A stretch of DNA of 64,000 bases from Pseudomaricurvus alkylphenolicus (GTDB lineage Bacteria; Pseudomonadota; Gammaproteobacteria; Pseudomonadales; Cellvibrionaceae): positions 744,001 through 808,000 of the forward strand of contig NZ_JAAQPI010000001.1 of assembly GCF_011683955.1 (NCBI RefSeq). Direction: 5' to 3'. The notes under the pieces were generated by a model that saw only the letters and a program-made list of their open reading frames with translations, did no database searches and was not told where the DNA came from. Shown one piece after another: positions 28,084 through 63,312 of this stretch; positions within the stretch are counted from its first letter, which is position 1; the number at the start of each line of letters is the position of its first letter. Position numbers and translations under genes: made by a program.

Positions 28084-28473
28084 ATGAATTTTCGGAAACT
28101 TATCGGATATACACTCCTGGTCATCTCCTTTCTTGCACTGATCTTGCTGCCGGCGATTCCGTTTTTATCGCTGGGCACGTCGTCAAGCATTGCACTGGCA
28201 ACAGGGCTGACCATTGTTGCGGAAGCCTGCTGGTGGCTCGCCGTCCCCCTGTTGGGGAAGGATTTTCTGCAATGGGGCAAACGGTTTTGGGGCAAGCTGA
28301 CCCGAAAGCCAAGCGATAGCATGGCACAAACGAACAGGCTTTCAGCCCCACACCAACAGTCATTTGACGATCACATTCATCCGACCGACAAAGGAGTCGA
28401 CTATGGCGGGAAAAATCCCTCAAGAAAGATTAAACAGGTACCTTGCACTCGACAAGGAAGATTCACTCGGTAG
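28084..28473 (+). CDS. Small membrane protein, possibly transporter-suffix-domain type
   Basis: A 129-residue frame from the ATG at 28084. Its first 75 residues hold two hydrophobic segments (IGYTLLVISFLALILLPAIP and ALATGLTIVAEACWWLAVPL) then KRFWGKLTRK. The two-helix pattern with EACWWLAVPLLGKDFL recalls small proteins annotated as transporter suffix domain. Its hydrophilic C-terminal tail overlaps the ureohydrolase gene by 71 bp in another frame, so either this tail is non-conserved or the real gene is short or damaged. The ribosome site is weak. Confidence 0.55.
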   Translation: MNFRKLIGYTLLVISFLALILLPAIPFLSLGTSSSIALATGLTIVAEACWWLAVPLLGKDFLQWGKRFWGKLTRKPSDSMAQTNRLSAPHQQSFDDHIHPTDKGVDYGGKNPSRKIKQVPCTRQGRFTR

Positions 28474-29506
28474 CCTGGGCGGCTCCCCTGAGGTGGCTGA
28501 GTTTATGGCTCGCGCCTATATGGAAGGGATGGACTTTGCACTCCCCACCTACCGACCGACGAACAGTTTTTTTGGCGCGCCCCATACCAAAGACCTGAGC
28601 GGTGTCGATATTGCCTGCGTGGGTATTCCCATGGATATGACACTGCCAAACAAACTCGGCTCCAATGAGGGGCCCAATGCCATACGGGACCGTTCGTTTC
28701 GCGTCGGCCCCATTCATAGCCCTACCAACCAGATTCCATTCGAAATGTGCAATATCGTCGACTTTGGTGATATCGGTTATGGCTTGCCGGAAGTATCCGC
28801 CAAGTCCTGGATGGTGGGCATTGAAGAAGCTTACCGAAAGTTTGCCGATGCGGGCATTGCCACCCTTTCTTTTGGTGGCGAGCACACCATTACCTACCCG
28901 ATTCTGAAAGCATTGGGACAACATGAGCCCCTGGCTGTTATTCATATTGACGCCCACGGCGATACCGCTGGTTCCAATCCGGAGTTGGAAGGCACCATGC
29001 AGGCCGAGGAATACAATGACACCGTGGTTTTCCGACGCGCCGTGCTCGATGGGGCCATCGATCCGGAAAATACCATTCAGATCGGCATTCGCGGCGCCTA
29101 CGAATTCGCCTGGGAGTTCTCCCACAACACCGGCATGCGCGTGATCAATATGGTGGAGTTCGAAGAGATGGGCGTGGACAAGGTTCTGGCCGAAGCGCGG
29201 CGGGTTGTCGGTAACCGTCCGGTCTATGTCACTGTCGACCTGGATGGTATTGACCCGGCGGATATGCCCGGTGTTGCCTTCCCCGAAGCCGGGGGCATTA
29301 CCTTTCGGGAAATCTCTCGCTTCCTGCGCGGTTTGCGTGGTTTGAATATCGTGGGAGCGGACATTGCAGAGCTCAATCCGAGTCTTGATCCGCAGGGGAC
29401 CTCTGTGGTCAATGCGTCGGCGATCGCATTTGAGTTGTTGACATTATTGGCGGAGTCTCAGGTTAAACGCCGGGGTACCAGAAACAAAACTCACTGGAAT
29501 AAGTAA
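28403..29506 (+). CDS. Arginase/agmatinase-family ureohydrolase
   Basis: A 367-residue manganese ureohydrolase, read from the ATG at 28403 with AAGGAG eight bases upstream. All six metal ligands are present: H161 (GGEHT), D183, H185, D187 (DAHGD), and D279 and D281 (VDLDGIDPADMPG). The first motif is GGEH instead of the usual GGDH. It hydrolyses a guanidino group to urea plus an amine. The substrate is not readable; agmatine, guanidinobutyrate, guanidinoacetate and related acids are all possible. A shared terminator separates it from the convergent nitrilase gene. Confidence 0.9.
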   Translation: MAGKIPQERLNRYLALDKEDSLGSLGGSPEVAEFMARAYMEGMDFALPTYRPTNSFFGAPHTKDLSGVDIACVGIPMDMTLPNKLGSNEGPNAIRDRSFRVGPIHSPTNQIPFEMCNIVDFGDIGYGLPEVSAKSWMVGIEEAYRKFADAGIATLSFGGEHTITYPILKALGQHEPLAVIHIDAHGDTAGSNPELEGTMQAEEYNDTVVFRRAVLDGAIDPENTIQIGIRGAYEFAWEFSHNTGMRVINMVEFEEMGVDKVLAEARRVVGNRPVYVTVDLDGIDPADMPGVAFPEAGGITFREISRFLRGLRGLNIVGADIAELNPSLDPQGTSVVNASAIAFELLTLLAESQVKRRGTRNKTHWNK

Positions 29507-29526
29507 GGGAGATTCCAAAAATCTTC

Positions 29527-29559
29527 AAAAAAGGGCTTCTGATAACAGAAGCCCTTTTT
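29527..29559. terminator. Bidirectional Rho-independent terminator
   Basis: A 9-bp stem (GGGCTTCTG at 29533-29541, CAGAAGCCC at 29546-29554, loop ATAA) is flanked by six A on the left and five T on the right, so it can end transcription from both sides. It separates the ureohydrolase gene (plus) from the nitrilase gene (minus). Confidence 0.9.
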
Positions 29560-29582
29560 GGTTCTGGTAATTTACAGAACTA

Positions 29583-30380
29583 TTACCACAAGTCACAAGG
29601 GAAAAACTGCTGTTTCCACGCGGCCATATCCGTATCAACTTCTGCGACCACAATGGGGTCCAGGGGATTGGTTTGAGCCACCAACGCCGCCGTTGGATTG
29701 ATGATACTGGCGCGGCCTTCAAACTGGGCGCCACCTTTTGGGTCCACCAACTGCTCCATCGAAATGCCCCGGTTGGAAGTGGCAACATAACAACCGGACA
29801 CATTGGCCGCCATATGCATACCGGAACGGAACAACTCCACAGCCTGGGGCGGGGTTGCGCGGGGGCAAACAATCAGGTTGGCACCCTGACGTCCGTATTC
29901 CCTGGCGTGTTCCGGGAACATAATGTCAGTGCAGATCATAAAACCGATTCTAAGTCCCGCCACTTCGGTAACTTCAAAATGTTTTTGACCTTGCTCGGTC
30001 CAGGTCTGTTCATAGAAGCCATCGCTCTGCGGAATGTGCTGCTTGGTGTGTGGGCAAGAGACCACTCCACCCTCACGGGTCCAGACAAAAGCTTCATTGA
30101 CGCGTTTGCCGTTTTCATTGACAGCGCGGGAACCCACTACGGCGGGGGCACCCAATTCGGCCAGCGCTTCGATACAGCGCCGGTGAGCTTTGACCGATTC
30201 ATCCCAGGCCTTCTGGCTGAAATCATCGGAAGCGGCAAGCCAGGGACCGAAAGGCAATTCACCCAGCACCAACAGTTCCGGCTGCAGCCTTTGCACCGAC
30301 TGGGCCAGTGCCTGCCAGGCCGGAGTATCCACATCCAATTCAGGATGATTTTCGGTAACGGCGATTCTAATACGGGGCAT
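29583..30380 (-). CDS. Carbon-nitrogen hydrolase (nitrilase superfamily)
   Basis: A 265-residue cytoplasmic hydrolase with the catalytic triad E41 (LGELPFG), K113 (CPHTKQHIPQ) and C150 (GFMICTDIMFPEHAREY). The length fits amidases, carbamoylases and omega-amidases of the superfamily better than true nitrilases. AGGAG precedes the ATG. It is probably co-transcribed with the aminotransferase upstream (25-bp gap). It would release ammonia from an amide or carbamoyl-amino compound. Together with the convergent ureohydrolase it suggests breakdown of a nitrogen-rich molecule. Confidence 0.9.
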   Translation of the reverse strand: MPRIRIAVTENHPELDVDTPAWQALAQSVQRLQPELLVLGELPFGPWLAASDDFSQKAWDESVKAHRRCIEALAELGAPAVVGSRAVNENGKRVNEAFVWTREGGVVSCPHTKQHIPQSDGFYEQTWTEQGQKHFEVTEVAGLRIGFMICTDIMFPEHAREYGRQGANLIVCPRATPPQAVELFRSGMHMAANVSGCYVATSNRGISMEQLVDPKGGAQFEGRASIINPTAALVAQTNPLDPIVVAEVDTDMAAWKQQFFPCDLW

Positions 30381-30405
30381 GGTTATCTCCTAGGTTGTAA
30401 GAGTA

Positions 30406-31728
30406 TCAGAGGTTTTCGGATTTGAGTTGTTTCAGCGAGTCACGGATACGATCAAGTGCATCGTTAACCTCTTTTTCGGTATGGCCGGCAGAGGTGTAGA
30501 ATCTTGTCCAGGTAAATACGCCATTTTCCAACATCAGCTCAACGAAGCGAGCGGCTTTCGTCATACCGTTTCCCCAACCATCCAGACTGTCGGCGTAGTT
30601 GATGGTTTTTTCTTTGGGGTGAAAGAAGTAATTCCAGCAGGCAGGAAAACCCTGAATCCTCAGGTCATCCATTCCCAACTCCTGAGCGATATCAAGCACT
30701 CCCTCGCGAAGCAGGTTGCCGTGCTTTTCAATGGATTGATAAATCGCACCGTTGTCTCTTTCCAGTTCTTCAATAGTGGCGATAACTGCCGCCATACCCT
30801 GCGCGTATCCGTTATAGGTGCCTGCAATCAGTACGTCGTTGTCCACCAGCTTTTGCATGATATTCTGCTTGCCACAAACCACCGCCACGGGAATTCCACC
30901 TGCAACACCTTTCGCGAGGGTGCACATATCGGGAATAACGCCAAAGCGCTGTTGTGCCCCGCCAATGTCCATACGGAATCCGGTAACGATTTCATCGAAG
31001 ATCAGAACGATACCGTATTTGTCACACAGTTTTCGCACGCCCTCCAAGTAACCCTGTTCGGGCAGACAGCCGAACCAATTGGTCATGGAGGGTTCCATCA
31101 TTATCGCGGCGATTTCATCACCATAACCTGCCAGTAGTTCCTCCAGTGCCGGGAGATCATTCCATTGGACACGGTATTTCCCTTCCAATGCGTGGGTTTT
31201 TCGACCCTCTGTATTGGTAAACATGGAATCTACATCGCCTTCGATTTGACCGGCGCAGGCAATGGGATTTGATGGGTCTTTAACAATGCCTCCCACGAAC
31301 TCATCAGTCGAGCCGTGATAATGCCCCAAGAAGTGAACAAACTTATCTCGTCCCGTATAGGCCCTGGCAATACGAAGGGCATTCGCATTGGCTTCGGTGC
31401 CCGTTACGCAAAATCTCACTTGGTCAGCACAGGGAACATGTTCAACAATCTTCTCGGCTGCCAAGACCTGAACTTCGCTGGTCATGGCATTAAAAAGTTC
31501 GCGATTTTGGCTTTCAATGGCGTGGGTTAAATGCCGGTTTTCATAACCAAGTATTGCCGGCCCCGAACCCAGGTTATAGTCAATAAATTCCTGGCCTTCA
31601 ACGGTTCTCAACCTCACTCCGTTAGCACTTTTAAAATACACGGGTGCCAGAGCACCTTTTCGATAATTACTCTGAATACCGCCAGGTATAACCCTTTTTG
31701 CTCTATCTAAAAAAGATTCGCTATTCAC
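30406..31728 (-). CDS. Class III aminotransferase, glutamate-1-semialdehyde-aminomutase-like
   Basis: A 440-residue PLP enzyme. The cofactor Lys is K273 in LAKGVAGGIPV, the PLP-ring Asp is D245 in IFDEIVTGFR, and GTEANANALRIAR (110-122) binds phosphate. The start codon is GTG (31728) after GGAG. The N-terminal AKRVIPGGIQSNYR resembles HemL-type proteins, but HemL is normally not in catabolic clusters, so this is more likely an amino-acid or omega-amine aminotransferase or aminomutase. It is divergent from the GcvPA-like gene with a 232-bp shared upstream region. Confidence 0.9.
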   Translation of the reverse strand: MNSESFLDRAKRVIPGGIQSNYRKGALAPVYFKSANGVRLRTVEGQEFIDYNLGSGPAILGYENRHLTHAIESQNRELFNAMTSEVQVLAAEKIVEHVPCADQVRFCVTGTEANANALRIARAYTGRDKFVHFLGHYHGSTDEFVGGIVKDPSNPIACAGQIEGDVDSMFTNTEGRKTHALEGKYRVQWNDLPALEELLAGYGDEIAAIMMEPSMTNWFGCLPEQGYLEGVRKLCDKYGIVLIFDEIVTGFRMDIGGAQQRFGVIPDMCTLAKGVAGGIPVAVVCGKQNIMQKLVDNDVLIAGTYNGYAQGMAAVIATIEELERDNGAIYQSIEKHGNLLREGVLDIAQELGMDDLRIQGFPACWNYFFHPKEKTINYADSLDGWGNGMTKAARFVELMLENGVFTWTRFYTSAGHTEKEVNDALDRIRDSLKQLKSENL

Positions 31729-31960
31729 TTTATACTCCGGTTTTATCGTGACTTGGTTTTCCTTTTGTAAATTATATTGCCCCGATCAAACCCCGGACTT
31801 ATTACGATGCGTCAAGCTTTTATGGTTTCGCGTCAAAATGCAGAAATCTGAAGATATGCGACAGGCGGTGTCTTTTTCAGGAGTTTTTCAATTGTTATTA
31901 TCAACTCATCGCTTCCGCAACACCGTAAACCTGAACAACGATCACATCGGAAATCCAAAT

Positions 31961-33358
31961 ATGAATGAACAGAATATTGTTTACCCCTATATACCCAATT
32001 CGGTACCTGCAGTAAAAAAGGAAATGTTGGAGACCATCGGAGTCAGCAGCGTAGAGGCGTTATTCGAAGACATTCCCCAACATTTACGCATCAAAGGCAA
32101 GATGGATCTTCCGGAACCGATTCATGATGAATACAGCCTCATGCGTCATGTGAAAAACCTGTTGAGCAAGAACAGCAATACGTCAGAGAATCTGAATTTT
32201 CTTGGCGCCGGCTGTTACGAGCATGCTGTTCCCGCCGTCTGTGATGAGATCAACGGTCGAGCGGAGTTTCTGACCGCTTACGCCGGTCAGACCTACTCCG
32301 ATCACGGCAAGTTTCAGGCGATGTTCGAGTTCAATTCGCTGATGACCGAACTGCTGGACATGGATTTTCTGGCGCTGCCACAGTACGATGGTCCCGCCGC
32401 GGCCGCCAGCGCATTGCGGATGGCGGCAAGATTAACCGGTCGTCGAGAAGTGCTGCTGCCCCGTTCGATCAATCCCGAAACCCTGTCACTGATAAAGAAC
32501 TATGTCCATTCGGTCACCGACCCCATCAACGTGGTTTTGGTTAACATCGACGGCGAGTCCGGCACATTGGACATGGAAGATCTGAAATCAAAAGTCTCGG
32601 ATAATACGGCGGCCATTTATATTGAAAACCCCGGTTATCTGGGAACCTTTGAACCCAAGGCAGAAGAAATTGGCAATATTGCCAAAGATAAGGGCGCGGA
32701 ATACGTTGTGTATTGCGATCCTATTTCTTTGGGCATCGTCGCCCCGCCTTCTCACTATGGTGCCACCATAGCCTGTGGCGACCTGCAGGCACTTGGCATG
32801 CACATGACTTGTGGCGGAGCTCAAGCCGGATTTATCGCCGGCGGTGATGCCGAACGCGCCGCACAACTCAAGGATGTCATGATCGGCATTGCCGACACTC
32901 AAAAGCAAGGGGAATACGGTTTTGCCATGGCAGGGGTTTTTAATACTTCCTATTTCGCCAGAGAAGATTGTGATGAATATACAGGGTCCGGGACCGCACT
33001 GTGGTGTATTACCGCAGGAGTCTATCTGGCATTGATGGGTCCCAAAGGCATGGAGGAAGTCGGGCAGAGCATTGTTCAGAAAGCCCGTTACGCCGCCGAC
33101 CGAATTTCAGAGCTCGAAGGTGTGACCGTGACTTTCAATTCACCTTTCTTTAAGGAATTCGTGGTGAACTTTGACGGAACGGGAAAATCCGTGGAAGACA
33201 TCAACCAAGCTCTGCTGGGACAAAACATATTTGGCGGGAAAGATCTCTCTGCAGAGTTACCCGAACTTGGGCAGAGTGCACTCTATTGCGTGACAGAAAC
33301 CAAAACTCAGCAAGACATTGACGTTCTGATTGACGCGCTTAAGGCTGTGACCCAATAA
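31961..33358 (+). CDS. gcvPA: Glycine dehydrogenase (decarboxylating) subunit 1-like
   Basis: A 465-residue protein related to the N-terminal half of the glycine-cleavage P-protein. The ATG at 31961 begins MNEQNIVYPYIPNS, close to the expected family start; a longer frame from 31748 adds unrelated residues. Family segments: EDIPQHLRIKG, NFLGAGCYEHAVPA and AYAGQTYSDHGKFQAMFEFN. It pairs with the subunit 2-like gene 44 bp downstream. P-proteins decarboxylate glycine and pass the aminomethyl group to lipoyl GcvH. No GcvH, GcvT or Lpd lies in the window, and gammaproteobacteria usually have a fused GcvP, so the symbol marks homology, not proven function. I see no glycine riboswitch upstream. Confidence 0.85.
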   Translation: MNEQNIVYPYIPNSVPAVKKEMLETIGVSSVEALFEDIPQHLRIKGKMDLPEPIHDEYSLMRHVKNLLSKNSNTSENLNFLGAGCYEHAVPAVCDEINGRAEFLTAYAGQTYSDHGKFQAMFEFNSLMTELLDMDFLALPQYDGPAAAASALRMAARLTGRREVLLPRSINPETLSLIKNYVHSVTDPINVVLVNIDGESGTLDMEDLKSKVSDNTAAIYIENPGYLGTFEPKAEEIGNIAKDKGAEYVVYCDPISLGIVAPPSHYGATIACGDLQALGMHMTCGGAQAGFIAGGDAERAAQLKDVMIGIADTQKQGEYGFAMAGVFNTSYFAREDCDEYTGSGTALWCITAGVYLALMGPKGMEEVGQSIVQKARYAADRISELEGVTVTFNSPFFKEFVVNFDGTGKSVEDINQALLGQNIFGGKDLSAELPELGQSALYCVTETKTQQDIDVLIDALKAVTQ

Positions 33359-33402
33359 GGGCATTGCGCAAACGATATAGTAGTCCGCATAGGAGACAGA
33401 TA

Positions 33403-34995
33403 ATGGCTAGAAATCCACAAACCTTGCTTCGCGATTACCACGCGGCTCGCTGGGACGAAGAAATGATTATGGACCTGGGCGAGCCCGGGGAGAGAGGCGT
33501 AAAGGTTCCGGTTGCCGAATCAGAAATTACCAGTCGAGTAGGAGACGCTTCCTCACTGGTTCCTACTCAATTGCTGAGACGCACCCCTCCCGCTCTGCCG
33601 GAAGTCAGCCAACCCAGGGTCAACAAGCATTACACGCGCCTGTCCCAGGAAACCATGGGCTCCAACGTCGGCAACGATATTGGTCAGGGCACCTGCACCA
33701 TGAAGTACAACCCGGTGTCTCAACTGCATGTCGCTACCAGACATCCCGGCATGACGGAACTGCATCCGCTGCAGGATGAAAGTACCCTGCAGGGCATACT
33801 GGAGATGTATTACAAGCTGCAGGAAATGTTAAAGGAAACCTCGGGTATGGACGCCGTGTCGCTGCAGTCCTGCGGCGGTGGTCAGGCCATTTACGCTAAT
33901 GCCAGTGTGGTGCGGGCCTATCATGAGTCTCGCGGCGATCATCAACGTGACGAAGTTATTACCACATTGCTGTCGCACCCGGCGAATGCGGCGGCACCAG
34001 CCACCGCGGGTTACAAGGTGGTTACGCTGATGCCCACCGAAAGCGGCATACCCGACATGGACGCTCTGAAAGCCGCACTGTCAGAAAGAACGGCCGCGGT
34101 CTTTATCACCAATCCCGAAGATACCGGCGTGTTTAACGGCGATATCGATAAACTGGTTCAGGCCGCCCACGACGTCGGTGCTCTTTGTGTTTACGATATG
34201 GCTAACGCCAACGGACTCTTGGGTATTACACGTGCGAGAGAGGCGGGGTTTGACCTGTGTCACTACAATGCTCACAAAACCTTTTCGACACCCCACGGCA
34301 GTATGGGGCCGGCTTTGGGCGCACAGTGCGTCACCAAAGAGTTAGAGCCGTTTTTGCCGAAACCCATTGTCTGTTTCGACGGTGAACGCTACTCGCTCAA
34401 ATACGATTGTCCGCACAGCATTGGTAAAATTCGTTCTTTTATCGGCAATGCATCTCTGGTTTGCATGGCTTACACCTGGATCATGAACCACGGCGCCGAC
34501 GGACTGCGCGAAGTAGCGGAAGTGTCGGTGATCAACAACAATTATCTCTACGAAAAGCTCAAGGATATTCCGGGTCTGACGGTTTATTTTGCCGAGGGCA
34601 GGCGCCGGCTTGAACAGATCCGCTATTCCTGGGACCCACTGTTCGCCGAAACCGGTGTCGGCTCCGATCACATCCGGGCTCGCATGGTGGACTATGGAGT
34701 GCAATCTTTCTTCGCCAGCCACCATGTCGGACGCCACGAAGAAGAACCGCTGGCTGATCAGATTGTTTCAGAAGCCATGACCCCTGAGCCTTGTGAATCC
34801 TTTTCAAAGGATGATATTGATGAGTATGCAGCCGTCATGGCCCAGATCTCCAAGGAGGCTTATGAAACTCCGGAGCTGGTAAAAACGGCGCCGCACAATT
34901 CATCGATTCACAATGTGCCGATTCCATTTATGGAAGACATTGTGACCCAGGCGGGCACATGGCGTTTGTACAAGAAGGCGAAGAATCTGGATTGA
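33403..34995 (+). CDS. gcvPB: Glycine dehydrogenase (decarboxylating) subunit 2-like
   Basis: A 530-residue PLP enzyme related to the C-terminal half of the P-protein. The ATG at 33403 follows AGGAG. The cofactor Lys is K292 in NAHKTFSTPHG, and the signature TCTMKYNP is at 97-104. The glycine-rich stretch after the Lys motif differs from the canonical version: GSMGPALG where GGGGPG is usual. This could reflect changed substrate or acceptor handling. Together with the preceding subunit it would form a heterotetrameric decarboxylase. Whether it acts on glycine or another amino acid is open. Confidence 0.86.
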   Translation: MARNPQTLLRDYHAARWDEEMIMDLGEPGERGVKVPVAESEITSRVGDASSLVPTQLLRRTPPALPEVSQPRVNKHYTRLSQETMGSNVGNDIGQGTCTMKYNPVSQLHVATRHPGMTELHPLQDESTLQGILEMYYKLQEMLKETSGMDAVSLQSCGGGQAIYANASVVRAYHESRGDHQRDEVITTLLSHPANAAAPATAGYKVVTLMPTESGIPDMDALKAALSERTAAVFITNPEDTGVFNGDIDKLVQAAHDVGALCVYDMANANGLLGITRAREAGFDLCHYNAHKTFSTPHGSMGPALGAQCVTKELEPFLPKPIVCFDGERYSLKYDCPHSIGKIRSFIGNASLVCMAYTWIMNHGADGLREVAEVSVINNNYLYEKLKDIPGLTVYFAEGRRRLEQIRYSWDPLFAETGVGSDHIRARMVDYGVQSFFASHHVGRHEEEPLADQIVSEAMTPEPCESFSKDDIDEYAAVMAQISKEAYETPELVKTAPHNSSIHNVPIPFMEDIVTQAGTWRLYKKAKNLD

Positions 34996-35002
34996 TAATC
35001 CA

Positions 35003-35128
35003 TCGCGGTACCCGATAAGGCTGGGTAGACTCTGTAGCAGCCCGCTCCGAGGGCGACTGGTTTTGGCACTTCGTATCGGTCGCGGTACCCGATAAGGCGG
35101 GGCAGGCTCTCGGAGCCCGCTGCAGCAG
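35003..35128. repeat. REP-like palindrome, copy D, with partial duplication
   Basis: A longer member of the family at 5781. The central part (about 35032-35128) has the usual arms, CTGTAGCAGCCCGCTCCGAG and CGGAGCCCGCTGCAGCAG, with CGCGGTACCCGATAAGGCGG in its interior. The segment 35005-35040 repeats that interior and the right-arm end (CGCGGTACCCGATAAGGCTG, then GACTCTGTAGCAG), so part of one element was duplicated in tandem. It lies between the GcvPB-like and AcoX-like genes. Confidence 0.82.
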
Positions 35129-35210
35129 TCGGTACTGGTATTCATTTGGGCTGTACGAGAACATTGAGGTACGCAATCAATGATGATGTTCCGTAGTCAG
35201 AGGCTTGTAA

Positions 35211-36332
35211 ATGGTTAAAAAGAAAATTGGCGTTATCATTAACCCGGTTGCCGGCATGGGTGGCCGAGTCGGGCTTAAGGGTAGTGACGGAGCAGAAATA
35301 CTGCAAAGGGCACGCAAGTTGGGTGCAAAACCCGAGGCGGCCACGCGTTCAATTGAGGCCTTGAAGGTTGTTGCTGAGCAGGAGGGTCAGGTGGAAGTCC
35401 TGACCTACCCTGGCGAAATGGGGGCTGATGCCTGCAGGGCTGCGGGCTTGTCAGTGACCGTCATTGGTTCGATTTGCAGTGGTGAAACCACGGCGGAAGA
35501 CACCCGCCGCGCCGCCAACGACATGGCTGCGGCCGGCGTTGACCTTATTTTGTTTGCCGGCGGCGATGGCACCGCCAGGGTGCTGTTGGACGTGGTTGGT
35601 TTGCAAGTTCCTGTCATCGGCATTCCCGCCGGCGTCAAAATTCATTCTGCAGTCTATGCGCTCAGCCCCAGACGAGCCGGAGAGGCGGCAACGGAGTTTT
35701 TACAGCGTGATTCCGTCAAGACCCGCGAAGTCGAAGTCATGGATATCGACGAGGACGCATTTCGAAAGGGTGAAGTTAATGCCCGATTGTATGGATACCT
35801 GTCGGTGCCGGACACGAGGCGGTATCTTCAAAGCGTCAAAACCGGAGGCATCCGATCGGAACAGGCAACGCTAAAGGGTATGGTGGAAGCCTTGATCCAA
35901 GATATGGAAAAGGATTGTTACTATATTATTGGTCCCGGAACCACTACCCGTGCCATTATGGAAGGTCTGGATCTCGATAACACCTTACTCGGTGTCGATG
36001 TGGTCAGAAACTTTGAACTCATTGCCAACGATGTCAGTGAAAATCAGTTGCTTGAGATCGTTGGCGGCGGTCGTGCGAAGATTGTCGTTACGGCCATTGG
36101 TGGTCAGGGGCATATTTTGGGTCGCGGTAATCACCAATTGAGCCCAGGGTTGATCAGAAAGGTCGGCAAGGAAAACCTGATTGTCTTTGCTACCAAGGAA
36201 AAGTTGGCTTCTTTGTCGGGACGCCCTTTGTTAGTGGACACCGGCGATCAGCAGCTTAATGCGGAGCTCAGCGGTTATGTCAAAGTAATGACGGGAAAGA
36301 GAGATTTTGTGGTCAGTAAAGTAGGTTTCTAG
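35211..36332 (+). CDS. ATP-NAD kinase/AcoX-family protein
   Basis: A 373-residue protein of the NAD-kinase-like fold. Seen: NPVAGMGG (11-18), the nucleotide-binding GGDGT (117-121) and GIPAGVK (137-143), the typical motif order of this family. AcoX and relatives are often linked to catabolic operons but their reaction is not established. The ATG follows GAGG at seven bases. It is 215 bp after the GcvPB-like gene with a REP-like element between, so membership of the same transcription unit is likely but unproven. Confidence 0.85.
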   Translation: MVKKKIGVIINPVAGMGGRVGLKGSDGAEILQRARKLGAKPEAATRSIEALKVVAEQEGQVEVLTYPGEMGADACRAAGLSVTVIGSICSGETTAEDTRRAANDMAAAGVDLILFAGGDGTARVLLDVVGLQVPVIGIPAGVKIHSAVYALSPRRAGEAATEFLQRDSVKTREVEVMDIDEDAFRKGEVNARLYGYLSVPDTRRYLQSVKTGGIRSEQATLKGMVEALIQDMEKDCYYIIGPGTTTRAIMEGLDLDNTLLGVDVVRNFELIANDVSENQLLEIVGGGRAKIVVTAIGGQGHILGRGNHQLSPGLIRKVGKENLIVFATKEKLASLSGRPLLVDTGDQQLNAELSGYVKVMTGKRDFVVSKVGF

Positions 36333-36348
36333 ATTCATTACGTGGAGT

Positions 36349-36437
36349 GTAGGGTGGATTAGCGGTAGCGTAATCCACCAGGATTATGGCACGTGCCAGC
36401 AATATCGGTGGATTACGCTATCGCTAATCCACCCTAC
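36349..36437. repeat. GGTGGATTA-type palindrome, full copy
   Basis: An inverted repeat of two 31-bp arms (36349-36379 and 36407-36437) with one mismatch and a 27-bp loop. The left arm begins GTAGGGTGGATTAGCGGTAG. It lies between convergent genes and could also act as a transcription barrier. A half-size relative is at 51447. This repeat type occurs in many proteobacterial intergenic regions. Confidence 0.9.
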
Positions 36438-38477: not shown

Positions 38478-39905
38478 TTAACGCTTTTTGAGGGTAATGG
38501 TCTGCCAATTAGTATATTCCATTAATCCATGAAGTGAATTTTCGCATCCCAACCCGGATTGTTTGTGGCCTCCAAACGCCTGAAAGGGTGAATATTGGTG
38601 CACCTCGTTGATCCATACCGTGCCAGCCTCAAGCTGAGCGCCAATGCGCTGGGCGGCTTCCAGATCCTTGCCCCAGACGCTGGCCCCCAATCCATAGACG
38701 GTATCATTGGCTCTTGCGATAACGTCCGATTCATCAGACCACTTCAACAGTGGCAGTATCGGCCCGAAGGGTTCCTCCCGGACAATGCGAGAATCCTCCG
38801 GCGGATTATCCACCAGAGTGGGAGAAACAAACCAGCCCGCCGCATTGTCCTCAATGGCCCCTCCTGTAGCGAATGAGTAACCCTGATCCCGACAGTCTTG
38901 AAAATAGGTTTTTACCTTTTCGAACTGCGGTTGGTTTTGAATGGGTCCCAGAACTGTGTCGGAATCGGCGCCATCGCCAACAATCACCTGTGTGTTGATA
39001 AACTCCACCAGTGCCTGTTTTATCTCATCGTAAACAGACTCATGAATGTAGAGACGTTTGGTCGCATTGCAGAACTGCGCGTTGTTTTGAAAGGCAGCCC
39101 AGAACAGCTCTGGCGCGATAGACTTGGCATCGACATCCGGTAACACAATCGCCGGATCATTACCCCCCAATTCAAGGGTCAGCCGTTTGATGGTTTTGGC
39201 CGATGCGCTCATCACATGACGCCCGGTTTCGGTGGAGCCGGTAAAGGCTATCTTGTCAATGCCGGGATGTGCCGTCATCCACTTACCCAACTCGTCACCG
39301 CCATTGACAACGTTTAACACACCGGGTGGTAGAATATCCCGCGCCAGCTCTCCCAGCTTCAAGTCGCACAATGGCGTGTAGGGTGAAGGTTTGACTACCA
39401 CGGTACAGCCGGCGACCAGTGCCGGGGCAATTTTCCACACCGCCAGTAACAACGGAAAGTTCCAGGGTACGATCGCCCCAACGACGCCAAGCGGTGTATA
39501 CCGGGTAAGCACTTTTCGCTCTGCGGTATCTTCAAGAATTTCCTCCGGCAATGATTGCGTGGCGATCGCTTTTAACCACGCTACCGATCCCATGACTTCC
39601 CACTCAGCCCCGGCTCTGGGCTTGCCCTGTTCGCGGGTCAACAGGCGCATAAATTCTTGCTGGTGATCCTCCAGGGCCTGACCCAACGCGGCCACGGCTG
39701 CCTGGCGCTCCTCGATGGGCAAACGGCTCCAGTGCGCAAACGCCTCCCTGGCACCCTCTACCGCGTCGTTCAGGTGATCCGGCGTGGCGTCCGGCACCGT
39801 TGCAATCACCTGTTTGGTTGCCGGGTTGTAAACCTCATGGGTCTCGGTGGTGGTGACGAAATCACCGTTAATTGTCATTGCGTAGTTCGCATCGAACTGA
39901 ATCAT
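38478..39905 (-). CDS. NAD(P)-dependent aldehyde dehydrogenase
   Basis: A 475-residue aldehyde dehydrogenase read from the ATG at 39905 (MIQFDANYAM); the longer frame to 40112 would run into the receptor gene. N149 lies in PWNFPLL, the base E245 in LELGGNDP, and the nucleophile C279 in AQFCNATKR, an unusual surrounding for the family's more common GQ-x-C. Probably oxidises an aliphatic or aromatic aldehyde and feeds the adjacent acyl-CoA ligase. The receptor gene ends 124 bp upstream on the same strand. Confidence 0.9.
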   Translation of the reverse strand: MIQFDANYAMTINGDFVTTTETHEVYNPATKQVIATVPDATPDHLNDAVEGAREAFAHWSRLPIEERQAAVAALGQALEDHQQEFMRLLTREQGKPRAGAEWEVMGSVAWLKAIATQSLPEEILEDTAERKVLTRYTPLGVVGAIVPWNFPLLLAVWKIAPALVAGCTVVVKPSPYTPLCDLKLGELARDILPPGVLNVVNGGDELGKWMTAHPGIDKIAFTGSTETGRHVMSASAKTIKRLTLELGGNDPAIVLPDVDAKSIAPELFWAAFQNNAQFCNATKRLYIHESVYDEIKQALVEFINTQVIVGDGADSDTVLGPIQNQPQFEKVKTYFQDCRDQGYSFATGGAIEDNAAGWFVSPTLVDNPPEDSRIVREEPFGPILPLLKWSDESDVIARANDTVYGLGASVWGKDLEAAQRIGAQLEAGTVWINEVHQYSPFQAFGGHKQSGLGCENSLHGLMEYTNWQTITLKKR

Positions 39906-40029
39906 TTTATTTCTGCCTCGTACTTCACTGGCTGGGTAACTGGAGGGAAAAGAGTGCTCACGTAAATTCGCTGCCGCGCCCCGGGGCGCGCAGCAAAATT
40001 GAATGACGGTTGTTATACGGGTGGGGCGT

Positions 40030-42237
40030 TTATTCCCAGCGGTAGATAAATTCCGCGCCAAAGGTTCTGGGCGCTCCTTTCTGCGAGATATCCATATTGA
40101 ACCCATCGGCAAAGTCCATATCGACGTTTTTGTACTCTTCGTCGGTAAGGTTCTTCACCCACAAACTTAAGGTATAGGGAAGCGCTTTGTCCTCCCAGCT
40201 GAGCCGCAGATTCGTGAGCCAGCGGGATTCAATCACATTGCGCTTAACATTTTCCGGCTGAGAGTAGTGCTCATCGGTATAAGAGGTATCAAGATGCGCC
40301 AGGATTGTACCGCTGTCCGTCTCGGCAACCACGTAATCCAGAGACAGATTAAAATTCCAATCCGGTGCGTTGATCAATTTATTGCCCGACAAATCGCTGC
40401 CCTCCAAGATCAGTGACTTGTACTCTGTATCCAGATAGCCCAGACCCGCCTGCAATGTTAGGTCCTCAGTCGCTAGAGCCACCAACTCCAACTCCAACCC
40501 AAGCACTTCCGATTCTCCGGCATTGCGTACCGTTTGCACCAGGGTGGCGGAGTCAATATCAATAAACTGCTGATCGGTATAGTCATAAAAGAACACCGCG
40601 CCATTGAGTTGTATACGATCACTGGCAAACTGGGACTTGAAGCCGATTTCGTAGGCGTCTATTTCTTCCGGATCCGCCTGGGTGATCTCGTCAACACTGA
40701 AGAAGGCCGTCGCGTTGAAAACCCCATTGCGGTAACCCTGGTTGTAGCTGATGTAGGCCATGCCCGAGTCGCTCCAGTGATAATTCAGTGCGATGCGACC
40801 TGTGACTTTGGAGTCAGAGAAATCACTTTTGGGCTGTGGAGGAATCAGAAATGCCTGATCAACCAGATCAGCGAACCCGAATACCGACTGCAGGCCTACC
40901 ATTTCACTGTCATCCTCAGAGTAGCGCAAGCCGACCACCAGGTTCATGTTTTGCGTGAGCAGGTAGTCCGCCTGCGCAAATACGGCATAGCTGTCACGGT
41001 TTTGAGTGAAGTTGTTGCGGTAAAAGGTTCCGGTTTGAAGTATCGGATCAAAAGGAAAGTCCAGATAGACACGGCTTTGGGTTACTATGTCGTTCTCCTC
41101 ACGACCATAGAATACACCACCGATCCAATTGAAGGGGCCTTCATAGGATGAGCTGATGCGCAGTTCCTGGGTGTACTGGCGAACCTCCGAAGTACCTATC
41201 AGTTCAAGAATACCGATTGAGGTGCCGTCCGCATCCTCCGGATTGTTAAAAATGCCTTCGTCGTAAGCTGTGATTGAGGTCAACGAATAGCTGTCGTTAA
41301 TCTCCCAGTTGACCGTCAGACTGATCCCTTCGTTTTCCATGGTTCGTTCTTCAACGAAGTTGGCCTCGGTTTCATGAAAGTCGAGGTGTTCATTGTTGAG
41401 TCCGGTGAAGCCGATACCCAGCCCAGGCACCACTTCCTCGCTGGACCAAACAAAGTTGGTGGGGTTGGACTTGGATTTGCGCAGGCGCACAACCACGTCG
41501 GTGGAGTCGCTGAGCACGGCTTTGACCGTAACACGCCCTGCCCATTCATCCACCTCATAGGGATCTTCAATACCGGGAATCTGGTGCTCAACATAACCGT
41601 CACCCTGGTTGTAGACGAAGGCAGCGCGGACTGCCAGCTTGTCCGCAATCAGAGGGGTTTCGTAGGCACCGTGTACTTCTCGTTTACTGTAGTTCCCCAA
41701 GCCCACGCTTAAATAGCCATCGGATACAAAATCGGGCGTTTTTGTGTGGAAATTGACGGCGCCCCCGGTGGTATTTTTTCCGTACAATGTTCCCTGCGGT
41801 CCACGCAGCACTTCCAGGCGATCCAGGTCGAACATCTGCATGCCGTTTAACGCCATTGGCCCCCGGTACACCTCATCCACGTACATACCGATAGGGCTGT
41901 TCTGGTTAAGATTGTAATCCGCCTGAGTCACACCTCGGATCGACATGGCAGGCAATGAATCACCGAAGTTCGAGATGATCATCATATTCGGGATTTGTGC
42001 GGCGATTTCCATGGTGTTACGGAGCTTGAGTTGTTCCAGCTCATTGCTGCCAATCACAGCCATGGAGATAGGCACATCTTGAGAACTTTCTGCCTTTTTT
42101 TGTGCGGTAACAATTATTTCCTCAATAGCAAACGAGTCGGCCAGAGCATCGTTTGTGAGGGTCAGAGAAACGTTTGTAAAGACCAGCGATGCAGTCAGAG
42201 CCAGTGCCCGGTTGGGGCAGAATTTTTTGTTTAACAT
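40030..42237 (-). CDS. TonB-dependent outer-membrane receptor
   Basis: A 735-residue receptor read from the ATG at 42237, which follows GGGAGAGG; the longer frame to 42276 lacks a ribosome site. The signal peptide ends ALA (33), the TonB box is EEIIVTAQKKAES, and the plug has IRGVTQ and LEVLRGPQGTLYGKNTTGG. The C-terminus is YRWE: the usual terminal aromatic residue is followed by one Glu, a small departure from the assembly signal. Downstream are an aldehyde dehydrogenase and acyl-CoA ligase, upstream a LuxR regulator on the same strand, suggesting a lipid or hydrocarbon-type substrate. Confidence 0.92.
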   Translation of the reverse strand: MLNKKFCPNRALALTASLVFTNVSLTLTNDALADSFAIEEIIVTAQKKAESSQDVPISMAVIGSNELEQLKLRNTMEIAAQIPNMMIISNFGDSLPAMSIRGVTQADYNLNQNSPIGMYVDEVYRGPMALNGMQMFDLDRLEVLRGPQGTLYGKNTTGGAVNFHTKTPDFVSDGYLSVGLGNYSKREVHGAYETPLIADKLAVRAAFVYNQGDGYVEHQIPGIEDPYEVDEWAGRVTVKAVLSDSTDVVVRLRKSKSNPTNFVWSSEEVVPGLGIGFTGLNNEHLDFHETEANFVEERTMENEGISLTVNWEINDSYSLTSITAYDEGIFNNPEDADGTSIGILELIGTSEVRQYTQELRISSSYEGPFNWIGGVFYGREENDIVTQSRVYLDFPFDPILQTGTFYRNNFTQNRDSYAVFAQADYLLTQNMNLVVGLRYSEDDSEMVGLQSVFGFADLVDQAFLIPPQPKSDFSDSKVTGRIALNYHWSDSGMAYISYNQGYRNGVFNATAFFSVDEITQADPEEIDAYEIGFKSQFASDRIQLNGAVFFYDYTDQQFIDIDSATLVQTVRNAGESEVLGLELELVALATEDLTLQAGLGYLDTEYKSLILEGSDLSGNKLINAPDWNFNLSLDYVVAETDSGTILAHLDTSYTDEHYSQPENVKRNVIESRWLTNLRLSWEDKALPYTLSLWVKNLTDEEYKNVDMDFADGFNMDISQKGAPRTFGAEFIYRWE

Positions 42238-59886: not shown

Positions 59887-61287
59887 TCAGCGGTGAGATA
59901 TACCGCGTTCGGCCTCGAACGCACAGATAGTGTCTGTAAATTTTTTCATAATCTTATCGATGTCATCGCAGGTAACATTCAATGGCGGCGCCAACAATAT
60001 CACATCACCAAAACGCCCCCCGTTGCTTCGACGGCCATAAACAAAGAGGCCAAGCTCTTGTGCTATCAGCCTCACTCGATCAGTAGCATTGATCTCCAAG
60101 GGAAATGGAGTTTTGGATGCTTTATCAGCCACTAACTCCACACCCAACAGCAAGCCCCGCCCGCGAATGTCACCGATGACTGTTGTTTGGTCTTGCAGCT
60201 CTCTTAGCTTTCCAACTAGGTATTCACCCATATCGCAGGTATTTTTGAGCAGATCATTTTCGGCAATTTCACTGAGCACAGCAATCCCGACTGCACAAGC
60301 GACCGGACTGGCATTATATGTATGAGCATAATTAAATCCGGTCAACGCGGACAGCTCATCAACCAAAGCCGCTGATGTCAGCATGGCTCCTAAGGGGTAA
60401 TAGCCCGCTCCCAGTCCTTTTGCAACCACAGAGATATCGGGGCGTGCTTTTGGCCATCGATGACTGGTTAAAAATGTGCCCGTTCGCCCCACACCAGACA
60501 TGACTTCGTCGTAAATCAGAAACACTCCGTACTTATCGCAAATTTGGCGTACTGCATTGAAGTAGGTCTCTGAAGGAGCGTTTGCTCCCGAGGATGATCC
60601 GCCAACAGGCTCTACGATAAAGGCCAGAACTTCGTCCTGACCCAGAGCAATTATCGTTTCTTCCAATTGCCCGGCGCACTGTAGCTCATAGGCATCTTGT
60701 GTCATTCCCTGTGGACGACGGTGACTCAAAGCAGCAGGAACGTGCCTCGCCATTGTTAGCATATCTCCAAACACTTCGCCAAAAACCGGGTCTCCGCTTA
60801 CCGCGAGCGTTCCTAAGGTCATACCATGATAAGACGGCTGGCAACTGATTAGTTTAAAACGCTGCTTTTCTCCGCGGGCATACCGATATTGACGACAGAA
60901 TTTGATCGCCATGTCTACAGCCTCTGATCCACCTGACACAAAGAAGGCTCGTTCGAATCCATCACCGGCAAGTTGTGTTAACGTATTAGCCAGCTGAATG
61001 TTCGGAAGATTTCGCGCGGTCGAGGGGAACGAGAATTCCAGTGTCTGTGCCTGCTTGCTCATCGCCTCTATGATTCCCTTGTGACCATGCCCTAAGTTAC
61101 AGGTCACTGGGCCGGAAGATGCATCGATATAACAATTTCCCTGATCATCCCAAAGGTAAATACCTTCTCCTCGAACCAACGTCGGCCGCCAATTGTCACC
61201 ATTCCCAGCGTAAAAAATATCCTGGGCACCACCTTTGTCATCGGTTGATACACCCGACTGGGTGAAACCAGTTGCCTTGTCTGTCAT
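59887..61287 (-). CDS. Class III aminotransferase, YodT-like
   Basis: A 466-residue PLP aminotransferase read from the ATG at 61287 (MTDKATGFTQ), preceded by GAGG. The Schiff-base Lys lies in SVVAKGLGAGYYPLGAM, the PLP-binding Asp in LIYDEVMSGVGRTG, and GSEAVDMAIKFCRQYR binds phosphate. In Bacillus subtilis, yodT sits in a gene set with CoA-transferase subunits (yodR, yodS), an M20 deacetylase (yodQ), an acetyltransferase (yodP) and lysine 2,3-aminomutase (kamA). The same types follow upstream here, so transamination of acetyl-beta-lysine is a reasonable proposal. Confidence 0.88.
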   Translation of the reverse strand: MTDKATGFTQSGVSTDDKGGAQDIFYAGNGDNWRPTLVRGEGIYLWDDQGNCYIDASSGPVTCNLGHGHKGIIEAMSKQAQTLEFSFPSTARNLPNIQLANTLTQLAGDGFERAFFVSGGSEAVDMAIKFCRQYRYARGEKQRFKLISCQPSYHGMTLGTLAVSGDPVFGEVFGDMLTMARHVPAALSHRRPQGMTQDAYELQCAGQLEETIIALGQDEVLAFIVEPVGGSSSGANAPSETYFNAVRQICDKYGVFLIYDEVMSGVGRTGTFLTSHRWPKARPDISVVAKGLGAGYYPLGAMLTSAALVDELSALTGFNYAHTYNASPVACAVGIAVLSEIAENDLLKNTCDMGEYLVGKLRELQDQTTVIGDIRGRGLLLGVELVADKASKTPFPLEINATDRVRLIAQELGLFVYGRRSNGGRFGDVILLAPPLNVTCDDIDKIMKKFTDTICAFEAERGISHR

Positions 61288-61355
61288 TGATTGATTCCTC
61301 AACCTCGCTTGTTTCGTTTACTCATTTGGCTAAGATACTACTTCTGTTGGTTTTT

Positions 61356-62660
61356 TCATCTCGCTCTTATCTCACACCATCGACTGATAAACAGCGCGTA
61401 GGTCATTAATGTATGTCTAATGGATTCCAGATTCACACACTCATCAATACCATGGATATTACGAGCAATGGGTCCGTAGCAAGTACCTGCTGTTTTGCTG
61501 TAAAAGTGAAATGCTCTGAGGTCTGTCGTACAGGTTAATAGGCGATGTTCCACGTCACTGCCGGTCAGGCTGCGATGGCATTGAGACAACAACTCGATTC
61601 CTGGATCCTGCAAATCGATTAACAGACCTTCGGAACGAAAACCATGGAAACGCAGTAGCGGCGGATTACTTTTAAACTCCGGCAGCCTTTGAGTAGCTCG
61701 CTCTATGCGATCACTGACCATCTGCATAATCTGGTTTGCGGTCATGCCGGGAGGAAAACCGACTCTTACTTCCATTTGGGCGTGGGCGGGCACGCTTGAG
61801 GCCCAATTGCCACCATCAAAGCGCCCTATGCTCAGATTGAATGGGTGATCGAATTGGTCGTATGGTGGGGAACGATATTGGTCATTGAGCTCAGCCTCCA
61901 AATCCTTCAGCGCAGGAATCAACATCTGTAACCGCTCTATTGCGTTTACCCCGGCGGAGGTATCCAGAACATGGGCAGGCGTACCTCTGCAGATCACTTT
62001 GAACCACAGAACTCCCACCTGGCCGGTATGAATCTGTGGCCCGAAGGGCTCAGGAATCAACACGAAGTCTCCGCCATAACCCTGATCCAGACAAGCCAGG
62101 GTGCCATTGCCCGAGCACTCTTCCTCCACCACGGCTTGAATGGTCAGCGGTGAGTCGATGATAAAACCGGCTTTGTGAATGGCGTGTACAGCGTAGATCA
62201 TGGCCGCAACGCCTGACTGCATATCCCCCGCTCCACGGCCATACAGCCACCCATCTTTTTCCCATGGTTCATTAGGGGGGCGGCTCCACATATCAAAAGG
62301 TGTAGCATCAACCACATCCAAGTGCCCGTTGAATACCAGACTCTTTCCCTTCGCCTGAGGGTTGAGTGTTGAAACCAGGTTATATTTTTTGTCATGCTCC
62401 CACTCCACGGGCGCATATAATGGATGCTCTGAAAGACTCTTTTTATTCAACGGGACGCGATCGGCAGGCAACGACAGATCCCTAAGATGCCGTTCAACCA
62501 CATCCAGTACGCCCTGTTCTTGATTCAGGATACCGTACTGTTTCACCATTTCTTTTGTGAAGTTGATGACCTCGGGAAATATCTGATCACATATTGAGAG
62601 AATTTTACCTTCTATAACCCCACGCTCACTATCGTTACGCTCATCTACGAAGGCTGTCAT
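61356..62660 (-). CDS. M20-family deacetylase/peptidase (ArgE/DapE type)
   Basis: A 434-residue zinc amidohydrolase. Metal ligands H113 and D115 lie in NGHLDVVD, D146 in GRGAGDMQSG, E179-E180 in VVEEECSGNG, and a further Glu in LIPEPFG. Start and stop codons overlap with the CoA-transferase gene as TAATG, so translation is coupled. YodQ of Bacillus is of similar length. In a beta-lysine pathway it would remove the N-acetyl group from an acetamido acid late in the route. Confidence 0.9.
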   Translation of the reverse strand: MTAFVDERNDSERGVIEGKILSICDQIFPEVINFTKEMVKQYGILNQEQGVLDVVERHLRDLSLPADRVPLNKKSLSEHPLYAPVEWEHDKKYNLVSTLNPQAKGKSLVFNGHLDVVDATPFDMWSRPPNEPWEKDGWLYGRGAGDMQSGVAAMIYAVHAIHKAGFIIDSPLTIQAVVEEECSGNGTLACLDQGYGGDFVLIPEPFGPQIHTGQVGVLWFKVICRGTPAHVLDTSAGVNAIERLQMLIPALKDLEAELNDQYRSPPYDQFDHPFNLSIGRFDGGNWASSVPAHAQMEVRVGFPPGMTANQIMQMVSDRIERATQRLPEFKSNPPLLRFHGFRSEGLLIDLQDPGIELLSQCHRSLTGSDVEHRLLTCTTDLRAFHFYSKTAGTCYGPIARNIHGIDECVNLESIRHTLMTYALFISRWCEIRAR

Positions 62661-63304
62661 TAGAATCTCTCCAGCTGATCGGAAACTTTTAGTTCAGCAC
62701 CCGTCTGAGCCAACAAGTCGTCAAGTTGTATGTTCTCTGCGATTTCGCGCAGCAATAATCCCTCTTTCGTCACGTCCATGACGGCCTTATCCGTTATGAT
62801 TCTCGATACACACCGTTTAGCGGTCAAAGGGAGGGTACAACGTTTTAAGATCTTGGGATTCCCACGTTTATCGTTATGGCTGCACAAAATAACAATACGC
62901 GGTGTCTTTTGCGCTAACTCCATCGCTCCACCGATACCCGGCGAAAAGCGCCCGGGAATCTTCCAGTTAGCCAGGTTTCCCAGCTCATCGACTTCAAATG
63001 CTCCCATGACGGACATATCTACTTTTCCCCGTCGGATCATGGCAAAGGAGACCGCGCTGTCGAAGAAACAGCTGCCTTCTCGAGTGGTTGTGTAGACGCC
63101 GCCGGCATCTATCAGTGCAGCATCTGCCGTCTCCTTGGAGGCTTGTTTCCAGGCACCAAGTACACCGTTCTCGGACTGAATCAGTACATCTACGCTTTCC
63201 GGTAGGTAATTGATCAGTTGAGTTGGGAGACCTATACCGAGATTGACGATCTGTCCTGAAGCAATCTCTGCAGCCGCACGATTTAGCATTCTATCTGTAT
63301 TCAC
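62660..63304 (-). CDS. CoA-transferase beta subunit (3-oxoacid type)
   Basis: A 214-residue subunit of a family I CoA-transferase. The catalytic Glu is E45 in QSENGVLG, and GLPTQLINYLP and FDSAVSFAMIRRGKVDMS are typical. The start is GTG at 63304, five bases after AGGAG. It moves CoA between carboxylic acids together with the alpha subunit encoded eight bases upstream. Length matches YodR-like proteins. Confidence 0.92.
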   Translation of the reverse strand: MNTDRMLNRAAAEIASGQIVNLGIGLPTQLINYLPESVDVLIQSENGVLGAWKQASKETADAALIDAGGVYTTTREGSCFFDSAVSFAMIRRGKVDMSVMGAFEVDELGNLANWKIPGRFSPGIGGAMELAQKTPRIVILCSHNDKRGNPKILKRCTLPLTAKRCVSRIITDKAVMDVTKEGLLLREIAENIQLDDLLAQTGAELKVSDQLERF

Positions 63305-63312
63305 ATCAACTC

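Follow-up and report, generated by a model that had tools for sequence, protein, structure and literature searches.

A P-protein-like gene pair linked to an AcoX-like kinase in Pseudomaricurvus alkylphenolicus: a candidate amino-acid catabolic module

Closest described systems and the gene pair

Among described systems, the split glycine decarboxylase (P-protein) subunits GcvPA and GcvPB of Thermus thermophilus (PDB 1wyt, 1wyu and 1wyv) resemble the gene pair studied here. For the human enzyme GLDC, Lys754 and the tunnel are described in PMC7259800. AcoX, which lies beside acoABCD, is called a predicted NAD kinase in PMC9676059. We analysed a stretch of 64,000 nucleotides from Pseudomaricurvus alkylphenolicus (contig NZ_JAAQPI010000001.1, positions 744,001 to 808,000), here called the window, which carries a P-protein-like pair, PA' and PB', followed by an AcoX-like gene. 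PA' falls in a clade separate from canonical GcvPA, and the trio PA-PB-AcoX forms a conserved unit across bacteria and archaea, to which a short-chain dehydrogenase is often added. The main features are:

31961..33358, + strand: PA', GcvPA-like subunit of the separate family (Pfam GDC-P; NCBIfam NF001696, 450.4 bits)
33403..34995, + strand: PB', GcvPB-like subunit of the separate family, with the pyridoxal phosphate (PLP) lysine K292 (NF003346, 503.6 bits)
34998..35110, + strand: two imperfect 36-nucleotide direct repeats between PB' and AcoX, 86% alike, 77 nucleotides from start to start
35211..36332, + strand: AcoX-like kinase, 373 amino acids (Pfam NAD_kinase and NAD_kinase_C; GGDGT motif)

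The frame of PA' is open from a GTG at 31748, and the ATG at 31961 lies just ahead of the part that aligns with relatives.

The pair shares with the T. thermophilus P-protein the two-subunit fold, the PLP lysine of PB and the TCTMKY and YD(x)AN segments, and the profile matches to this protein reach 366 and 270 bits. In contrast to split GcvPA/GcvPB, PA' has its YTPYQ..SQG and REQ...NIC segments replaced, the PB family carries SHP and NPED where the canonical proteins have AHG and TNPxT, and the family is linked to AcoX and often a dehydrogenase, with no visible linkage to gcvH or gcvT. We infer from its NAD-kinase domains that the third gene belongs to the AcoX family; its likeness to the AcoX of acetoin operons is likewise drawn from these domains. 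Unlike that AcoX, it stands beside a P-like PLP pair and apparently not beside acetoin dehydrogenase genes, no acoABC having been seen when the window gene list was read by eye. Literature searches aimed at the family, AcoX and P-protein structure found no description of the family, most subscription journals being outside their coverage.

A separate family linked to AcoX

A collection of genomes from 84,980 species was scanned with the window copy and with a second copy, from a genome of the same order (G128). The scan gave 215 relatives, and the best 80 loci were kept. These show 50-56% identity over the best segment, and their record titles name Bacillota, Bathyarchaeota, other archaea, Aminicenantes, Aerophobetes, Chloroflexota, Gemmatimonadetes, Desulfobacterales and others. 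The identity of PA' to 15 canonical-type split GcvPA from its own order is only 28-34%, below that of the family relatives.

To place PA' we used a quick IQ-TREE analysis of PA only, with 66 rows (39 of 92 family, 21 of 42 canonical split and 6 of 17 fused sequences). A branch of 1.61 changes per site, with a Shimodaira-Hasegawa-like support (SH-aLRT) of 100, separates all 39 family rows from the 21 split and 6 fused canonical rows. PA' is inside the non-canonical clade and has no close kin there. Close clustering with canonical GcvPA had been named beforehand as a refuting outcome in the original prediction, which called the pair a split GcvP-like decarboxylase; for PA the tree gave the opposite.

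Residue traits were compared in alignments of 92 family PA, 85 family PB and 42 canonical split sequences of each subunit, with frames below 400 residues and duplicate loci dropped. In the YTPYQ..SQG loop of PA, the P, E and S are fixed in 42/42 canonical sequences, and the family has G (91/92), Y (79/92) and D (90/92); residues 107-116 of PA' read YAGQTYSDHG. The E, Q and C of REQ...NIC are each present in all 42 canonical sequences; in the family these positions hold T in 81/92, S in 89/92 and G in 92/92. Three PB positions that are invariant in the 42 canonical sequences differ likewise: the S of GSCTMK is T in 85/85 family members, the G of AHG is P in 84/85 and the T of TNPxT is D in 85/85. 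The canonical G of DGAN is Q in 76/85 and M in the window copy. PB' carries the family-specific T97, P193 and D240 (numbered from the ATG at 33403). The pair does not have the canonical signature residues.

The P-protein fold and the PLP lysine are found in the sequence of the pair. As predicted, K292 and TCTMKYNP (from residue 97) of PB' are intact, and the loop after the lysine is altered: it reads PHGSMGPALG, where the canonical PB rows shown have PHGGGGPG. We take TMKY, the lysine and the PLP-site aspartate to be retained catalytic residues. The replaced segments may line the PLP site or the lipoyl tunnel, a placement suggested by their conservation. The window copy breaks with the family consensus in 8 of the 108 conserved columns of PA and in 11 of the 120 of PB. 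It is among the more divergent copies, which would suit a special substrate.

Linkage was counted in 78 of the 80 loci. Two (L103, L114) were lost because longer antisense frames masked the pair in our simple gene picker, and the same fault may conceal some AcoX, dehydrogenase or side genes. We found 47 AcoX genes within 3 kb of the pair and 2 beyond 4.5 kb, over 402 kb of near and 446 kb of far DNA. Given these similar amounts of DNA, AcoX as a chance neighbour is rejected. The short-chain dehydrogenase is present near the pair in 65/78 loci (84 genes within 3 kb, 1 beyond 4.5 kb). If only the loci that extend 3 kb to either side of the pair are counted (46), 31 have AcoX nearby, 39 have the dehydrogenase and 27 have both. 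In a frequent arrangement the dehydrogenase is followed by PA, PB and AcoX. A sigma-54 regulator often lies upstream (it is near in 25 loci), and some loci have a transporter downstream. The one regulator that was scored is PrdR-like at 384.6 bits, below the cut-off of 795, and the NCBIfam matches of the dehydrogenase include meso-2,3-butanediol dehydrogenase (below cut-off) and general short-chain dehydrogenases/reductases (SDRs). No frame of the window falls in the linked dehydrogenase family.

A plasmid search at E 1e-60 returned 13 records: 8 that we assign to the family, with 43-50% identity, and 5 canonical-like ones at 31-35%. Seven of the eight family plasmids have AcoX directly upstream of PA; the one from the haloarchaeon Natronosalvus carries AcoX 56 kb from the pair. 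In genome G834, PA, PB, AcoX and dehydrogenase stand in a row. According to our own reading, the operon of G128 lies beside an aldehyde dehydrogenase, which clusters with that of the window, and a class III aminotransferase.

The window AcoX is 42-58% identical to 17 AcoX genes of family-bearing loci. It has both the NAD-kinase-like domains and the GGDGT motif (117-121), which is invariant in 18/18 AcoX. Its structural model, of fair confidence (predicted local distance difference score, pLDDT, 84.8; predicted template-modelling score, pTM, 0.73), gave weak PDB matches with a template-modelling (TM) score of about 0.25; several diacylglycerol kinases come top and yeast NADH kinase is at rank 18. 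As a guide to the substrate, the model and fold search were therefore uninformative: the low TM-scores point only to the general kinase superfamily.

Some observations on AcoX stand apart from these counts. AcoX relatives are present in unannotated records of Pseudoalteromonas and Aeromonas. In Natronosalvus halobius (L137, 5343-9134) the genes near AcoX are a class III-type aminotransferase ('aspartate aminotransferase family'), ornithine cyclodeaminase-type and dihydrodipicolinate synthase (DHDPS)-family genes and SDRs. In Peptoclostridium acidaminophilum (L134, 7992-10068) the coding region of an AcoX-like protein overlaps that of a class I/II PLP aminotransferase, with no P-like pair, so AcoX may pair with PLP enzymes more generally.

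The family is rare around the host. Among 145 relatives the sole other member is G128, from a different family of the same order (49% identity), and the five other genomes of the genus are without the pair. In 369 genomes sampled from the class, a family profile (E 1e-110) matched the host alone, and in 398 sampled from the phylum it matched three, one of them the host. The window aminotransferase, at E 1e-100, was found in one of 293 related genomes, again the host. This patchy distribution of pair and aminotransferase points to horizontal acquisition, and the module was probably acquired horizontally in this strain. With G+C contents of 0.49-0.56, the six genes from the ureohydrolase to AcoX differ little from the window as a whole (mean 0.524), which adds no further sign of transfer.

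Glycine cleavage genes in the host and in family genomes

The host assembly (8.88 Mb, 70 contigs) has its own fused GcvP, an open frame of 964 amino acids (C34:640244-642376), beside gcvT (C34:642882-643622). Two strong GcvH genes are on other contigs. The pair is therefore an addition to a P, T and H set, and the lack of any other GcvP, a further finding that would have spoken for ordinary glycine cleavage, does not apply to this genome. Profile searches found no GCV_H, GCV_T or further GDC-P match within the window, which bears out the claim that GcvH and GcvT are missing there. The claim that Gammaproteobacteria normally use a fused GcvP is mostly true; however, a canonical-type split GcvPA is encoded by 15 genomes of the window's order (among the 145 relatives searched), which makes a split P-protein nothing exceptional in that order.

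GCV_H and GDC-P were searched in 53 family genomes (50 from the 80 loci, plus G128, G834 and G823). GCV_H matches are strong in 47 of them, and in six (G894, G911, G914, G920, G924, G926) no match exceeds 24 bits. GDC-P scores form two groups, about 331-613 bits, many of them beside gcvH, and about 146-222 bits, which includes the family copies. The best GDC-P score of these six genomes and of four Paenibacillus genomes that do have GcvH (G883, G885, G889, G895) is only 203-222 bits, in the family range. GCV_T was searched in these ten and in seven comparison genomes: it is absent in 10/10 and present in 6/7, the seventh comparison genome being 0.8 Mb. Genomes with the pair do not always have GcvT and a convincing GcvH, though the host of the window has both. 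No GcvH or GcvT is listed beside the pair in the seven annotated plasmid records, whose gene table is incomplete.

Two of the six genomes without a convincing GcvH have titles not marked as metagenome-assembled (L084 in G911, L105 in G924). The latter, Enterocloster hominis BX10, has neither a convincing GcvH nor a GcvT; its two PA-like copies (C2:72858-74195 and C19:26094-27440) score 222 and 197 bits, in the family range.

Predicted function and neighbouring genes

We lean slightly to the view that PA'/PB' is a PLP enzyme akin to the P-protein, from a separate family and independent of the lipoyl H-protein, a probable amino-acid decarboxylase with AcoX as its partner. The wider view, to which we give about even chances, is that of a widespread, undescribed bacterial and archaeal amino-acid catabolic module, in which an H-free P-like PLP decarboxylase or carbon-carbon-breaking enzyme works with AcoX and a short-chain dehydrogenase, and which has here been recruited to a guanidino compound. 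Because the PLP machinery is kept and some hosts appear to have no known lipoyl acceptor, the simplest remaining chemistry is alpha-decarboxylation with amine release. An amino acid other than glycine would form an external aldimine at K292 and lose its alpha-carboxyl, after which the amine would be released or the carbanion passed to a small acceptor, in this host too without an H-protein. AcoX, the usual partner, would act as a kinase of the NAD kinase/diacylglycerol-kinase type, and in most members the dehydrogenase would act on the substrate or the product. Several aerobic members lie near amine-handling or acid-activating genes: a primary-amine oxidase and an acyl-CoA synthetase in one, an adenosine monophosphate (AMP) ligase in another, the class III aminotransferase and aldehyde dehydrogenase of G128 and the class III aminotransferase of the window. 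ArgE/M20 hydrolases recur near family members (one by eye). The substrate ideas of aspartate to beta-alanine, beta-hydroxy amino acids, sphingoid bases, hydroxyproline and acetoin-like ketones found support in no test.

Several results weigh against a decarboxylase that is independent of H-protein and partnered by AcoX. Both subunits exceed the NCBIfam cut-offs, PA' that for GcvPA (450.4 against 364 bits) and PB' that for GcvPB (503.6 against 441 bits). With clear GcvH in 47/53 genomes, use of H-protein is possible in those hosts, including this one. In G894 and G914 there is one marginal GCV_H match each, of 23.1 and 22.6 bits, over the Pfam cut-off of 22.2, which leaves 4/53 genomes without GcvH by that cut-off; these matches cover 46-55 positions, and we read them as biotinyl domains. 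The completeness of the 50 locus-derived genomes is unreported, and absences may partly be assembly gaps; yet canonical P, T and, in six, H are missing from ten genomes that keep the pair, which makes gaps an unlikely cause. AcoX was not found in 5/5 Paenibacillus loci (L042, L046, L053, L062, L098), and it also occurs without the pair nearby in Peptoclostridium and Natronorubrum, so its link is strong but not exclusive. Finally, anaerobic members mostly have no amine-handling gene among their neighbours (by eye), which misfits simple amine release and makes other PLP reactions possible.

In four of the five Paenibacillus loci the pair is followed by a sensor kinase/response regulator (by eye), and sugar-type ATP-binding cassette transporter genes are near.

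Upstream of PA' lie the side genes on which a guanidino route would depend:

28403..29506, + strand: ureohydrolase (arginase/agmatinase family), 367 amino acids (Pfam Arginase, 239.6 bits)
29583..30380, - strand: C-N hydrolase (nitrilase superfamily), 265 amino acids (Pfam CN_hydrolase, 69.4 bits)
30406..31728, - strand: class III aminotransferase, GntE/glutamate-1-semialdehyde aminomutase-like, 440 amino acids, with K273 (NCBIfam GntE, 297.1 bits)

All six genes are at the proposed positions, and their Pfam and NCBIfam matches agree with the families that had been proposed. The ureohydrolase shares the arginase fold and metal-site residues with 3-guanidinopropionase GpuA and agmatinase SpeB; it has H161, D183, H185, D187, D279 and D281, presumably the metal ligands. 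Its best PDB match is 3nip (217.8 bits), and its nearest solved structure is 3-guanidinopropionase. It differs in scoring just below the agmatinase cut-off (TIGR01230, 172.8 against 174.3 bits) and at 213.6 bits against 302 for NF002564. The C-N hydrolase has E41, K113 and C150, which we assume to be its catalytic triad, and is far below the cut-off of the eight listed NCBIfam models. The best NCBIfam match of the aminotransferase is GntE of guanitoxin biosynthesis, but it is far under the equivalog cut-off of 525 bits and practically level with glutamate-1-semialdehyde aminomutase models (PRK00062, 296 bits, cut-off 398), so that neither family score is reached.

In this strain the three side genes could act on the product of a guanidino amino acid, with release of urea and deamination. 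A conceivable route is decarboxylation of a guanidino amino acid by PA'/PB', then urea release, transamination and oxidation by the aldehyde dehydrogenase at 38478-40112. The ureohydrolase and C-N hydrolase could free an amino acid from an amide- or ureido-type compound. Breakdown of a guanidino amino acid is a possibility for this one genome.

A conserved six-gene guanidino system, a possibility raised by the original prediction, is rejected on a search of the 80 related loci and of the surroundings of plasmid relatives of the C-N hydrolase and ureohydrolase. Among the 80 loci nothing related to the ureohydrolase or the C-N hydrolase turned up (blastp E 1e-5, frames kept by the simple picker). 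Five annotated plasmid regions were viewed, four with a relative of the C-N hydrolase and one with a relative of the ureohydrolase, and none of them shows the pair or AcoX. The aminotransferase is confined to the host among the 293 genomes and has no plasmid match at E 1e-90. The absence of ureohydrolase and C-N hydrolase relatives from the 80 loci and of the pair and AcoX from the plasmid regions, and the placement of the aminotransferase and C-N hydrolase on the opposite strand, fit an explanation that is compatible with an AcoX-partnered decarboxylase and that we hold to be evenly poised: only PA'-PB'-AcoX is a functional unit, and the side genes are unrelated neighbours in a catabolic island. 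Against it, the aminotransferase and PA' share a divergent intergenic stretch of 232 nucleotides, where a promoter scan found nothing above chance. Close to the single ureohydrolase relative whose region was viewed there is a class III aminotransferase as well as an AMP ligase, though not the pair, so this portion of the set may occur elsewhere too. Other family members also lie near amino-acid-freeing genes, the ArgE/M20 hydrolases and, in our own reading of locus L085, a hydantoinase and a carbamoylase.

That locus, from Clostridium ultunense, has downstream of AcoX an N-carbamoyl amino acid hydrolase, a dihydropyrimidinase-like (hydantoinase) gene, an NCS1-type permease and a second copy of the sigma-54 regulator (own reading).

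A P-protein-fold PLP enzyme with another reaction is less probable, though a serious competitor. It could carry out decarboxylative transamination to an aldehyde or ketone, aldol-type carbon-carbon cleavage or decarboxylative condensation, and the dehydrogenase would act on the carbonyl or hydroxyl product. The presence of the dehydrogenase in 65/78 loci agrees with this, as its matching models act on hydroxyl or keto compounds; PB' also scores against class V aminotransferases and cysteine desulfurases, and many anaerobic operons consist of hardly more than the dehydrogenase, the pair, AcoX, a transporter and a regulator. However, among homologues whose activity is known, glycine decarboxylases are the closest, and TMKY, the lysine and the PLP-site aspartate, with the roles assumed above, are kept.

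A second ordinary split P-protein using a distant gcvH would fit the passed cut-offs, the gcvT and two strong GcvH of the host and the clear GcvH of most family genomes, but we regard it as highly improbable in view of the separate PA clade, the replacement of positions fixed in 42/42 canonical sequences, the ten genomes without GcvT (six of them without convincing GcvH) and the plasmid records; on the tree, the signature residues and the missing GcvT/GcvH we also reject ordinary glycine cleavage beside unrelated genes.

If the reading as an H-free decarboxylase module is true, the module is hidden in databases under the glycine dehydrogenase name. All seven annotated plasmid records of the family label the pair GcvPA/GcvPB, and the whole clade is probably misnamed; since the NCBIfam equivalog cut-offs accept the pair, such misnaming would be systematic. 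A gcvPA/gcvPB annotation alone can be enough for glycine cleavage to be assigned to an uncultured archaeon or bacterium, and if the clade is something else, these reconstructions need a check for GcvH, GcvT and the signature residues. The results suggest that the P-protein fold is used outside glycine cleavage, without a lipoyl carrier. The family also supplies an operon context for AcoX-like kinases, which makes the role of AcoX testable.

An Rfam search of the window gave no match. Directly after AcoX, an inverted repeat (36349-36437) has 31-nucleotide arms (GTAGGGTGGATTAGCG...), 97% complementary and 27 nucleotides apart, and looks like a repetitive extragenic palindromic (REP)-type element. 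Further along, a second class III aminotransferase (59887-61302) is followed at 61356-63999 by an M20-like hydrolase and two coenzyme A-transferase subunits (by eye); by the same inspection, these genes may form another small nitrogen-compound cluster.

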